NCBI GenBank assembly: GCA_013299115.1
Contig: JAAFKA010000024.1
Span: 1 to 64,000 of the forward strand
Direction of reading: 5' to 3'
DNA: 64,000 nt
Source of the DNA: Cytophagales bacterium
GTDB taxonomy: Bacteria; Bacteroidota; Bacteroidia; Cytophagales; Thermoflexibacteraceae
The notes below the pieces were generated by a model. That model was given only the letters and a program-made list of their open reading frames with translations, had not been told where the DNA came from and ran no database searches. Shown here one piece after another: positions 11,251 to 28,075 of the stretch (position 1 is its first letter; every line of letters begins with the position of its first letter). The translations under genes were made by a program, and so were the position numbers.

Positions 11251-11365
11251 AACGGACTTTAGTCCGTTCACATATTGCCCAAACGGACTTTAGTCCGTTC
11301 ACATATTGCCCAAACGGACTTTAGTCCGTTCACATATTGCCCAAACGGACTAAAGTCCGTTCTAC
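11247..11365. repeat. REP-like array, four hairpins with a 31-bp period
   Basis: Four copies of ACGGACTTTAGTCCGT start at 11252, 11283, 11314 and 11345, each 31 bp apart, joined by the spacer CACATATTGCCCA. The last copy is inverted in its centre (CTAAAG). The array opens with GTAG (11247-11250) and closes with CTAC (11362-11365). This is the layout of a BIME, a cluster of REP elements. Spacers are identical, so it is not a CRISPR array. Confidence 0.9.
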
Positions 11366-24304: not shown

Positions 24305-26905
24305 TCAATTTGCAATCCTACCTTTTTGCACCAAAAACTTGATGTATTGCGTTTGATTGCCTATTTGTATCTGCACCAAATATAGCCCATCTGCCCATTG
24401 CGAAACATCTATGGTTTTGTTTTCGCCTGTGGATTGACTGCCTTGCAATAATTGTACGCCTAAGTTGTTGTAAATTACAAAATCGTATGGCATTTTGCTC
24501 TCTGTGCCTTGCCAGCCGAAAGTATAGCTGTTTGAGGCGGGGTTGGGGTAGCCAACTATTTCAGAAATTGGTAATTCTACCTTTTCTATACACATACCTC
24601 CCTTTGGACAGTCAGGAATGTCTTTACAGTAATCTACTGTATGCAAGTCAAATGTTTCCATACGATAAGTACGTTGCCCTTTGTCTATATCCACAGGCAA
24701 GCTACAATAATTCGTTGCTCGAACATAAACTTTTATAGGGGTTTTTATATTCGTCTTTCGCAAAGGTATGATGTAGGCAGTATTTCTATTCCTAGCTCTA
24801 ATCACGGCATCTGCGGGGTTTACATACCATTCATAGCCTGTAGCCCCATCTACTTCCTCTATGGATAGGTTATTTGTATATCCCATACACAAATAATCTT
24901 GCGACAAAGCACCAATGGGTGCAGGTCTGCCTACCCAAAAACGGTAAGAAGCTGGTGCAGAAGGGGTACACTGTAAAGGTGTGGCTGTCAAAGTTTCCCA
25001 GTAACCATCAACAACATTGTCGGGGAAGGCTGGGGGCATAAAATTTACAGTAACTGAATAATTATTTGTAACCGTAGAAGACTGCCATCTTCCATTTAAA
25101 CCTGTGGCACGTCCATTGCTCAACTCCCAATGAAAAATACTATTGGGCAAAACAGGCAACTGTGTAAAGTTGCGGTCTATCCGAACACGAGCAGCAAAAT
25201 AATATACGGGGTTGATGTCGCAAACAAAATTCTGCCAAGCATGAAACTCTGTAAAACCAACCAAAGGGCTATCTAACAACCCTACGGCAAACAAGGCAGC
25301 CACTACACTTGCTACTTCCTCAGAACATTCGCCATATAAATCAGCAGCAGCACGGCGGGCAGCTTGGGGTATATCTCGGTACGTGGCACCCGAAGTCAAA
25401 TAACCTGCCACACACATACGATAGGCTATTTTTTCTGCCACCTCCAAACCAATGCCTCTAACCGAAAAACTATTGCCAAAGTCGTTTGTCCCTGTTCCTC
25501 CTACGCTTAACCTATAAAACCAATGCCCTAAGACCAAGCCCTTGCCATGTTTCTCTAAAACATTCCAATCTGTTCCCTGATAAGTATTTTCTCCTTTGTT
25601 GAGTGAATTTGGGTCTTCAGGTAATGCTAAATTGCGTAAACAAGCAGCACTTCGCATCACTTGGTCGCCTATCTGCCAACTGCCTCTCCTCAGACAAATT
25701 CCCCAAATATCGGCAAAACCTTCGTGTAAGGCAGCTGTTTCGCCTCCTGCTGTAGAGTTTAAACCAAAAGACCAGTTGAAGCCATGCCCTACTTCATGCC
25801 CTATGATGTCTAAGGTTACAAGGGGCTTATGAATATTTGCTCCATCATGAAAATAAGCTGTTTTATTACTATTATTCCAAAAAGAATTGTCTTCGTTGCC
25901 TGCACGAGCCACTATGTTAAGGGTGGAACCTTGTCCATCATACCCATTTCTGCCATGTACACCGTCCCAGTAGTTTTGGGCTTGCATACCGCCCCAGTGT
26001 GCGTCTAAAGCCACATCATCTCCATTGGCAGCATAGTCGGCTTCTGTCCAGTTGCCGTCATCGTCTATCATGTTTATTTTTTTTGCATTGGTGGTTTTCA
26101 CACTGATGATGTTAAAGTTTTTGTCATCACCTGCTATGAGTTTAAACACACCTGGGCTGATTTGGCGAGTGTTTATTTTCTGAGTGCCACTGTATCGGGT
26201 ATTGGCATCGCCCACAAAACTACAAATAGTACTACTTTGATTTAAGATTTCTCCTGTGTAAGCATCGGCATAGACCACTGCATGGAGGGCGTGGACTTCA
26301 AAAAAGTAGGCTAACCTAAACTTTTGGGGCATATCAGGTGCGGCATCTCCACCCCAACCCCACCAAACCAATTCGGCTTTTTCGGCAGTTGTGGCGTGGT
26401 CTTCTGTGTGCGAAGTGCTTGCTTGGGCTTCGGCTCTTGCTTTGCCCAACTGTTCGGTTACTTTTTCTTTGCAGGCAGCAAGGGACAAAGGCGAGGCAAG
26501 CGTAGAGCCAACTAAATTTTTATAAGCCCCGTTGATGTACGTAATTTGCCCTTTTTGGCTATGCACTACATATTCGCCATGCTGTACTTTGACTCCTCTG
26601 TAATATTGCTGAAAAGCAGTATGCGTATAGCCCAACTGGTCGGTTTCGGTCTTGTAGGGTACAAAGGTAGTAAAACCATCAGTAGGCAATACTTTGTGGA
26701 GCAAGGTAGTAGCTTCTGCGGGGGTATAGGTTCTATCAAAAGAACTAAAAGACAGCAAATTGCCTTTTTCGGGAGATTGCTGGGCATAAGCCCCAAAACT
26801 AAAGCTTAGTAGGGCTAAAAATTTGCAAGTAATTTGCAAGTAATTTGCAAGTAATTTGCAAGTAATTTGCAAGTAATTTGCAAGTAATTTGCAAGTAATT
26901 TGCAA
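24305..26905 (-). CDS. T9SS-secreted M4 (thermolysin-like) metalloprotease with repeat-encoded signal peptide
   Basis: A secreted zinc endopeptidase. An FTP-type propeptide follows the signal peptide (about residues 50-110, AFQQYYRGVKVQHGEYVV). The catalytic domain has the zinc motif HEVGH near residues 370-374 and ALHEGFADIWG with the third zinc ligand. A C-terminal T9SS type A domain ends the protein (YPNPASNSYTFGW onward). The signal peptide is read from an 11-bp tandem repeat (26822-26920) as LQITCKLLANY cycles and ends FLALLSFSFGAYAQ. In this frame the only start is a TTG inside the repeats (26905). The natural ATG (26943, MKTRIEKNN), 20 bases after the upstream lipoprotein gene, is in another frame and meets a TAG at the repeat exit, so the gene is probably switched off here. 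Confidence 0.88.
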   Translation of the reverse strand: MQITCKLLANYLQITCKLLANYLQITCKFLALLSFSFGAYAQQSPEKGNLLSFSSFDRTYTPAEATTLLHKVLPTDGFTTFVPYKTETDQLGYTHTAFQQYYRGVKVQHGEYVVHSQKGQITYINGAYKNLVGSTLASPLSLAACKEKVTEQLGKARAEAQASTSHTEDHATTAEKAELVWWGWGGDAAPDMPQKFRLAYFFEVHALHAVVYADAYTGEILNQSSTICSFVGDANTRYSGTQKINTRQISPGVFKLIAGDDKNFNIISVKTTNAKKINMIDDDGNWTEADYAANGDDVALDAHWGGMQAQNYWDGVHGRNGYDGQGSTLNIVARAGNEDNSFWNNSNKTAYFHDGANIHKPLVTLDIIGHEVGHGFNWSFGLNSTAGGETAALHEGFADIWGICLRRGSWQIGDQVMRSAACLRNLALPEDPNSLNKGENTYQGTDWNVLEKHGKGLVLGHWFYRLSVGGTGTNDFGNSFSVRGIGLEVAEKIAYRMCVAGYLTSGATYRDIPQAARRAAADLYGECSEEVASVVAALFAVGLLDSPLVGFTEFHAWQNFVCDINPVYYFAARVRIDRNFTQLPVLPNSIFHWELSNGRATGLNGRWQSSTVTNNYSVTVNFMPPAFPDNVVDGYWETLTATPLQCTPSAPASYRFWVGRPAPIGALSQDYLCMGYTNNLSIEEVDGATGYEWYVNPADAVIRARNRNTAYIIPLRKTNIKTPIKVYVRATNYCSLPVDIDKGQRTYRMETFDLHTVDYCKDIPDCPKGGMCIEKVELPISEIVGYPNPASNSYTFGWQGTESKMPYDFVIYNNLGVQLLQGSQSTGENKTIDVSQWADGLYLVQIQIGNQTQYIKFLVQKGRIAN

Positions 26906-26920
26906 GTAATTTGCAAATTA
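26822..26920. repeat. 11-bp tandem repeat inside the M4 protease signal peptide
   Basis: Eight perfect copies of TTTGCAAGTAA (26822-26909) and a ninth altered one (26910-26920). Because 11 is not a multiple of 3, the repeat reads as the same 11-residue cycle in every frame and only the exit frame depends on copy number. Relative to ATG 26943 the present number is out of frame; minus one or plus two copies would be in frame. Confidence 0.95.
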
Positions 26921-26963
26921 TTTTTTTCTATTCTTGTTTTCATCTAAATTTATTTTTTTGGGT

Positions 26964-27431
26964 TTATTTTTCTTCGAACAAAAGGGTAAGATTGGTAACT
27001 TGCTTTTTCAAAGGCATGTACTTGTCCTCTTTGCAGGGGGTGTAATTAAGAGCATTTACATTACTCGGTGCAGTTTTGTTCTCATTGCAATAAAGAATTA
27101 AACCCATACCGTCACAGGCATAAGCCCCTGCGTTTATAAGAAAAGTAGGATTATTTGTAGGAAAGTGTTCAAACAAATAAACAGTGGCATTTTTATACTG
27201 CCCACTGTAAATTTTAGAGTTCGTGGTCGTATAATTTTCTTTGATATACCCTATCTCTCTTGCCATCCACCAATAGTCTGTGAGTGGGTTTTGCACAGGT
27301 AAACAGGTGGCAAGGGTAATACCTGCCAAGGGGTCATTAGCTGGCTCTTGTTCTGCGGGGCAGCCAGTGAGTGTGAGGGCAAAAGCAGCTAATACGGCTG
27401 TGTGTGTTGCCAATTTTTTAAATAATTTCAT
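26964..27431 (-). CDS. Small lipoprotein, duplicated copy A
   Basis: A 155-residue lipoprotein with signal MKLFKKLATHTAVLAAFALT ending LTGC (Cys24). The mature part has a WW pair (TDYWWMAREIGYI), two further conserved Cys residues (YACDGMGLILYC) and NALNYTPCKEDKY, then a C-terminus LTLLFEEK. It is paralogous to 27605-28075: the first 40 and last 30 residues are almost identical, the middle about half. It ends 20 bases before the ATG of the M4 protease and has its own promoter box (27474-27481, minus strand). Co-transcription with the protease suggests a helper, inhibitor or surface partner; this is inference. No known family is recognised. Confidence 0.78.
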   Translation of the reverse strand: MKLFKKLATHTAVLAAFALTLTGCPAEQEPANDPLAGITLATCLPVQNPLTDYWWMAREIGYIKENYTTTNSKIYSGQYKNATVYLFEHFPTNNPTFLINAGAYACDGMGLILYCNENKTAPSNVNALNYTPCKEDKYMPLKKQVTNLTLLFEEK

Positions 27432-27473
27432 AAGATTAAAATGGGTTTAGACTGTTAAATGATAAAATCGAGG

Positions 27474-27481
27474 CAAAGGTA
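27474..27481 (-). promoter_or_regulatory. -7 box TACCTTTG for lipoprotein copy A
   Basis: Exact TAnnTTTG match on the minus strand, 42 bases before the start codon, conserved in both duplicate copies. Confidence 0.65.
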
Positions 27482-27604
27482 AGGAGAAAAAGAAGGATTG
27501 CAAATTGTAGGGAATAGAATTATCGTTAAGCCTTGTTAAATACGCTATTGCAAATAAAGGTTGTCCGACTATTCTTGTTTTCATCTAAATTTATTTTTTT
27601 GGGT

Positions 27605-28075
27605 TTATTTTTCTTCGAACAAAAGGGTAAGATTGGTTACTTGCTTTTTCAAAGGCATGTACTTGTCCTCTTTGCAGGGGGTGTAATTAAGAGCATTTAC
27701 ATTGGTTGCATTAGTTGATGCTCCCTTGCTCTCTCTACAATAGCTGATTAAACCTTGTCCAGTACAATCTAATACCCAACCACGCCAAAGATTAGGATTA
27801 TTTGGATAGTAAGTTTCTATTAAATAGACATTAGTATTTTTATACTGCCCTTTATAGATTTTGGACTTGAAATCAGGATATTTAACTAAAGAATTTACCT
27901 CTCTTTTCATCCACCAGTAGTCTGTTAGAGGGTTTTGTACAGGTGGACAGCTGGGCAGGGTGATGCCTGCCAAGGGGTCATTAGCTGGCTCTTGTTCTGC
28001 GGGGCAGCCAGTGAGTGTGAGGGCAAAAGCAGCTAATACGGCTGTGTGTGTTGCCAATTTTTTAAATAATTTCAT
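27605..28075 (-). CDS. Small lipoprotein, duplicated copy B
   Basis: A 156-residue paralogue of the downstream lipoprotein, with the same signal and lipobox (LTGC), the same start of the mature part (PAEQEPANDPLAGITL) and the same C-terminus. The middle differs: SLVKYPDFKSKIYKGQYKNT and YYPNNPNLWRGWVLDCTGQG replace the other copy's residues, while Cys, WW and the K-Y-K-N pattern are kept. The mosaic of identical ends and diverged centre suggests either diversification or gene conversion at the ends. Promoter box TACCTTTG at 28118-28125 on the minus strand. Function unknown. Confidence 0.78.
   Translation of the reverse strand: MKLFKKLATHTAVLAAFALTLTGCPAEQEPANDPLAGITLPSCPPVQNPLTDYWWMKREVNSLVKYPDFKSKIYKGQYKNTNVYLIETYYPNNPNLWRGWVLDCTGQGLISYCRESKGASTNATNVNALNYTPCKEDKYMPLKKQVTNLTLLFEEK

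Follow-up and report, generated by a model that had tools for sequence, protein, structure and literature searches.

The locus described here raises the question of whether an apparently complete protease gene that cannot be read from its own start codon is a gene in decay, a gene that starts elsewhere, or a gene that is switched. It lies in a window of 64,000 nucleotides on one contig (C17) of a Cytophagales genome (G000), the window being the whole stretch of DNA that was analysed. The body of the gene is assigned to the M4 metalloproteases (PF01447, 1.4e-18; PF02868, 1.6e-20) with an FTP propeptide (2.2e-12) and carries a T9SS type A sorting domain (TIGR04183, 1e-10; PF18962, 8e-11), together with a PKD-like domain that is a weak match (Table 1). 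A preliminary description of this DNA had proposed a phase-variable T9SS protease that is off in this copy; the anatomy of a switch, the OFF state as assembled and the intact T9SS M4 body all stand, slippage at the locus being the predicted component of that reading. The elements on which it was built, namely the 11-bp array, the ATG at 26943 and the out-of-frame TAG, were recovered by TRF, in the sequence and by frame translation.

Table 1. Features of the protease locus (window positions) and non-triplet arrays in signal-peptide DNA of the same genome; n, number of units
Feature	Positions	Strand	Remarks
Protease body	24305..26827	-	Unbroken open frame of about 834 codons 3' of the array; FTP, M4, M4_C, PKD-like, T9SS sorting domain
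T9SS type A sorting domain (Por_Secre_tail)	24332..24550	-	
HEVGH, zinc-binding HExxH motif of M4	25784..25798	-	Aligned to thermolysin
Constant hydrophobic core and cleavage region	26780..26821	-	FLALLSFSFGAYAQ
TAG ending the ATG frame at n = 8	26815..26817	-	OFF
Altered ninth unit	26818..26828	-	Given as TTGCAAATTTTTAG / TTGCAAATTTT; runs into the constant signal-peptide core
11-bp array	26829..26916	-	8 perfect TTGCAAATTAC units (coding strand); TRF and sequence
Core-proximal TTG	26837..26839	-	MQITCKFLALLSFSFGAYAQ; frame independent of repeat number
n-region ahead of the array	26917..26943	-	ATG 26943 and MKTRIEKNN; upstream DNA A-rich
TAA in the protease frame	26918..26920	-	Directly upstream of the array
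Upstream lipoprotein gene	26964..27431	-	Array-free; candidate partner (as immunity protein or inhibitor)
Duplicated first 16 bp of the protease gene	27568..27583	-	ATGAAAACAAGAATAG; after the second lipoprotein gene
Second lipoprotein gene	27605..28075	-	Protein 75% identical to the first
Array, C17			11 bp, n = 8; protease at 26943; OFF
Array, C23 first			AAATTTCC, n = 6; stub; OFF
Array, C23 middle			CAGCACCG, n = 9; stub; ON
Array, C23 third			AAATTTCC, n = 7; 1.1-kaa T9SS hydrolase, lipase-like; OFF
Array, C13			CATTTCA, n = 4; lipase-like T9SS hydrolase; OFF
Array, C25			GCAAGCC, n = 11; fulvocin C-related bacteriocin gene; OFF
Array, C28			TTCTT x4.4; weak case; ON

The array (span 26820-26916 by TRF, with period 11, 8.8 copies and 100% matches) sits between ATG 26943 and the constant hydrophobic core and hence within signal-peptide-coding DNA. 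This ATG, which is 20 bases past the upstream gene, whose stop ends at 26964, is the only well-placed one, and at eight units its frame runs through MKTRIEKNNLQITCKLLANY...LLANF into the TAG at 26817-26815. The protease frame has no ATG and, as candidate starts, three TTGs within the array (26905, 26872 and 26839); the TTG start reported earlier is there, though not as the only one. When the 5' end was rebuilt in silico with 0 to 13 units, the protease was joined to the ATG only at n = 1, 4, 7, 10 and 13 (n = 1 mod 3); the fused ORF has 853 aa at n = 1, and all other phases stop after 18-62 codons. This bears out the earlier arithmetic, by which the removal of one unit or the addition of two restores the frame. 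A putative N-terminal Sec signal peptide would accordingly be read from the ATG only if n = 1 mod 3, or else from an internal TTG; the copy as assembled, with n = 8, is OFF from the ATG. The locus thus combines a perfect short-unit array with a non-triplet unit in the reading frame, a one-unit change of which toggles an intact ORF, as in slipped-strand phase-variable loci. Rescue by slippage in the A7 tract ahead of the array was considered and ruled out, because the protease frame meets the TAA at 26920-26918 between tract and array; judged on sequence, only length changes within the array would bring the ATG into the protease frame.

Chance was dismissed as the origin of the array, since 20 order-3 Markov simulations of the window produced no array with a unit of at least 5 bp, at least 3 copies and at least 20 bp. 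The 22-mer formed by two units is found once in the genome and is absent from 389 other genomes of the order, and the 11-bp pattern gave no match among the viral contigs searched. A wider search of genome contigs returned the pattern from one Flavobacteriales MAG only, as three exact unit copies (L061 4332-4365); with three copies, near a contig end and with no overlapping gene found, this match was judged unrelated. Conservation of the array could not be followed in a close orthologue, none having been found: a protein scan of genome contigs with the protease body recovered no relative, the best M4 matches in 59 relatives share less than 40% identity over the enzyme, and M4 homologues of other genera have no array near the start.

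Two readings of the frame structure would dispense with a switch. The first is a constitutive start at TTG 26839 (MQITCKFLALLSFSFGAYAQ, with a short complete signal peptide), at 26872 or at 26905, the array being a mere leader. The core-proximal TTG is in frame at any copy number and would give a plausible 19-residue signal peptide, and the protease body is intact; against this stands the better ATG, with A-rich DNA upstream and at its short distance of 20 bases from the previous gene, and the sister genes described below lend no support, so that we regard a TTG start as unlikely. The second is leaky or programmed -1 ribosomal frameshifting in the OFF state. In the n = 2 mod 3 phase the last codons of the ATG frame are ...GCA AAT TTT TAG, with a canonical slippery heptamer, A_AAT_TTT, directly before the stop, from which a -1 shift leads into the protease frame. 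The copy as assembled is precisely the one in which the heptamer is correctly phased, and the sequence just 3' of it can fold into a hairpin. This hairpin has a z-score of only -1.2, however, and only a short spacer separates it from the slip site. In the C23 gene the heptamer is out of the needed phase, so that it has probably arisen as a side effect of having AAATTTTT where the core begins; sister genes again offer no support, and we rate frameshifting as very improbable.

The signal peptide itself places the array more narrowly. The minimal ON form, with n = 1, is the canonical signal peptide MKTRIEKNNLQITCKFLALLSFSFGAYAQ, from which it follows that the array most likely arose by expansion inside an ordinary signal peptide. 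It had been suggested that the repeat doubles as a hydrophobic core of variable length, and this part of the preliminary description has to be given up: the peptide cycle, each round of which contains one Lys, has a mean Kyte-Doolittle value of only 0.66, and the core is an invariant FLALLSFSFGA that lies 3' of the array. The opa-like property of a repeat that encodes the hydrophobic core is thus absent from the protease locus, the core being outside the array. The repeat peptide is likewise hydrophilic in most sister arrays (QHRSTAAP, ASRKPQA, KFPNFQIS). The open cycle LQITCKLLANY is indeed common to all three frames, but this is automatic for any stop-free non-triplet unit.

The genome comprises 5.5 Mb in 74 contigs, and a survey of 2.33 Mb (42%) for perfect non-triplet units with at least 3 copies and at least 20 bp found 43 arrays, 7 of which are in signal-peptide DNA (Table 1), a class that, on a rough reckoning, accounts for about 2.4% of coding DNA. 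None of the 43 in the 2.33 Mb surveyed is wholly inside coding DNA of any other kind; the others lie between genes, in several cases a short way upstream of one. In the six arrays that were modelled (that of the protease and five sisters) an ATG lies ahead of the array, reading from it through 0, 1 or 2 units gives a canonical signal peptide, and in longer ON forms the n-region alone is extended, which speaks against a TTG start. The sisters also bear on the idea that the repeats are a DNA- or protein-binding element, in which TTGCAA palindromes and AAATT tracts at 11-bp phasing would bend DNA or bind a regulator. Each unit does hold a TTGCAA palindrome at near-helical spacing; yet the sister arrays occupy the same position with unrelated 5-, 7- and 8-bp units that have no helical phasing, and all that they share is a non-triplet, stop-free unit in signal-peptide DNA. 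Of the alternatives weighed here we give this one the least credence and consider it extremely improbable.

Several further repeats and genes were seen in the course of this survey. The array-bearing gene on C25 encodes a bacteriocin fulvocin C-related protein (NF033852, 1e-24); this lipoprotein gene, at L190 7350-9031 (G000:C25:37350-39031) and OFF through its 11-unit GCAAGCC array, adjoins a gene for a predicted membrane protein, and orthologous pairs of fulvocin-related and membrane protein genes occur in G001 and G006 without an array. Heptamer or octamer arrays lie 1-37 nt upstream of genes at G000:C34:69417-69464, C12:42185-42216 and C1:279944-280054, where they possibly tune expression without a change of frame; two of these genes encode large secreted proteins with signal peptides. 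An intergenic 31-bp tandem repeat with the palindrome GGACTTTAGTCC is found at 11251-11362 of the window, and related GGACTAAAGTCC repeats form arrays at G000:C23:123251-123551 and 135004-135159. An identical 61-aa T9SS sorting-domain end stands at the ends of contigs C10, C15, C42 and C74 of the same assembly, where repeated gene ends probably break the assembly.

Homologous genes offer a view of arrays at different lengths. The two homologous C23 arrays of AAATTTCC have 6 and 7 units between near-identical flanks, and in the genus-mate G001 the same cassette has 4 units on C249 and, on C16, 1 unit with a one-base deletion that locks the frame; this set of 1, 4, 6 and 7 units can be taken as direct evidence of length change. 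The one-unit cassette reads from the same ATG, a further point against a TTG start. Orthologous hydrolases from a second genus of the family have a different unit, CTTAT, in this position: six copies in G006, where the gene is ON, has one in-frame TAG further downstream and follows directly on a lipoprotein gene of the same family, and, where a contig begins, 4.8 copies in G009. The G006 array (peptide LILSY) does lie in the hydrophobic core. Homologues free of arrays exist for the hydrolase (G001:C275 and G040) and for the fulvocin-related gene (G001 and G006), so that an array is not obligatory. That the switch comes and goes and is re-established from other units speaks for selection acting on the switching property rather than on the sequence, and suggests that evolution keeps the design of an array in the signal peptide as a switch.

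These comparisons also weigh on the view that the array is a neutral expansion in a dispensable gene and the protease a young pseudogene. In its favour, the assembled gene is OFF and there are truncated versions of paired genes nearby (the M4 stub on C2, the stubs on C23 and C25). However, the body of 834 codons has no stop and keeps HExxH, propeptide and sorting domain, non-triplet arrays cluster in signal-peptide DNA, and the orthologues of the other genus have different units, one of them ON; in our assessment a pseudogene is improbable.

We therefore consider it probable that the array switches a T9SS-secreted M4 protease by slipped-strand phase variation. This reading draws on the intact catalytic and sorting domains, the phase model for n = 0-13, the recurrence of such arrays and the unequal homologous arrays; through the recurrence in other genes and species and the unequal lengths it is stronger than the evidence of the preliminary description had made it. 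Polymerase slippage would add or remove 11-bp units within the n-region of the signal peptide, each unit would shift the frame by 11 = 2 mod 3, and ATG 26943 would reach the core and the enzyme only at n = 1 mod 3. At n = 8 no protease would be made from the ATG, and the loss of one unit or the gain of two would turn it ON; each further ON step would lengthen the n-region by 11 residues and nothing else. The upstream lipoprotein gene, which is array-free, would stay readable, and the enzyme alone would be switched. Counting against the switch, besides the array-free homologues and the absence of a close orthologue among the relatives searched, are the lower tendency to slip that is expected of 11-bp units relative to shorter ones and the downstream in-frame TTGs, which could give constitutive low expression. 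Phase variation by slippage is nevertheless well supported as an interpretation of these arrays, and from it we infer slippage and ON/OFF expression at the protease locus.

The lipoprotein gene that precedes the protease directs attention to what might be switched against what. The two lipoprotein genes of the window are 98-100% identical at the 5' end and about 98% near the 3' end, with identity falling to 46% mid-gene, a tandem mosaic (26964-28075) that suggests recombination or diversifying selection; the second copy of ATGAAAACAAGAATAG is evidently the remnant of a tandem duplication. A lipoprotein gene lies upstream of the enzymes on C17, C2, C23 and C13, the hydrolase pair has an orthologue in G006 and cassettes occur in G001, so that lipoprotein and enzyme genes show the adjacency and conservation of a toxin-immunity pair. 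Among 62 T9SS genes with a located 5' end, 3 have signal-peptide arrays and 7 have a same-strand lipoprotein gene directly upstream, and all 3 array-bearing genes (the C17 M4 protease and the C23 and C13 lipase-like hydrolases) belong to these 7; a random draw would give this overlap with a chance of 35/37820, or about 0.001, in a comparison made after the pattern was seen. Strings of lipoprotein genes and enzyme stubs are found on C23 (two stubs and a full gene), on C25 (three stubs and a broken full gene) and, with one M4 stub and a full M4 gene, on C2. In the C25 string (L103 9358-16000), units of a lipoprotein gene and a stub of 95-99 aa precede a frame-broken lipase-like T9SS gene, and an inverted-repeat element (ATAGACTTCAGTCTGT...ACTAAAGTCTAT) marks the end of each stub.

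Fold searches that started from AlphaFold models of two lipoproteins returned no informative match. That the lipoprotein may be an immunity protein is put forward as a hypothesis, a dedicated inhibitor, a chaperone or a surface partner being the alternatives. More tentatively, and with appreciable doubt, these genes could be phase-variable antagonism cassettes, each made of an always-readable, fast-diversifying lipoprotein gene and a T9SS hydrolase with a slippage array, such that protection would be kept and the weapon toggled; the cassettes would duplicate into strings of lipoproteins and stubs, and their units (11, 8, 7 and 5 bp) would turn over with the switch kept.

Repeat-driven phase variation is best known in host-adapted pathogens such as Neisseria and Haemophilus; here a repeated design is seen in a Bacteroidota-type bacterium, in T9SS enzymes and a bacteriocin-like gene. 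If the reading is right, it ties phase variation to secreted antagonism through the T9SS in a way that can be tested, and it means that annotation pipelines will label such intact genes as pseudogenes or misplace their starts. In the open-access literature we found no report of repeat switching in the signal peptides of T9SS substrates, which is weak evidence of absence.

Slippage phase variation in a signal peptide is already textbook knowledge, and what looks new is the recurring cassette of an array-free lipoprotein gene and a switchable T9SS enzyme, with turnover of the repeat unit. The double use of a repeat as part of a signal peptide, which seemed unusual in the preliminary description, has precedents in leader or signal-sequence regions in the CTCTT repeats of opa (PMC5354566) and the AAGC repeats of autB (PMC5118866). 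In Neisseria opa, the number of units in the leader-peptide region switches translation of an exported protein (PMC5354566), and the protease locus resembles it in having non-triplet tandem repeats in signal-peptide DNA; the opa unit, however, is 5 bp in an adhesin family, whereas here an 11-bp unit precedes the constant core of a T9SS protease in a Bacteroidota-type genome. In autB and autA of Neisseria and Haemophilus the repeats are in signal-sequence DNA, the intact gene is mostly OFF and copy number varies among isolates (PMC5118866). An intact gene that is OFF with repeats inside signal-sequence DNA is common to both, but autB and autA have a tetranucleotide unit and encode an autotransporter for which no paired lipoprotein gene is described, and their variation is proven by strain data. 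In the TANFOR polymorphic toxins of Bacteroidetes, a putative T9SS-linked antagonism with neighbouring immunity genes has been described in a paper whose main text does not mention phase variation (PMC7073777); the enzymes here differ in being M4 proteases and lipase-like hydrolases that carry a T9SS sorting domain and gave no Pfam match to TANFOR. Finally, the immunity-gene strings of T7SS toxins (esaG, tipC) consist of tandem non-identical partners with conserved blocks and recombination between paralogues (PMC9484751), and the lipoprotein pair of the window resembles them in its conserved 5' and 3' blocks and diverged middle, although its members are predicted lipoproteins beside T9SS enzymes and not immunity proteins to T7SS toxins.
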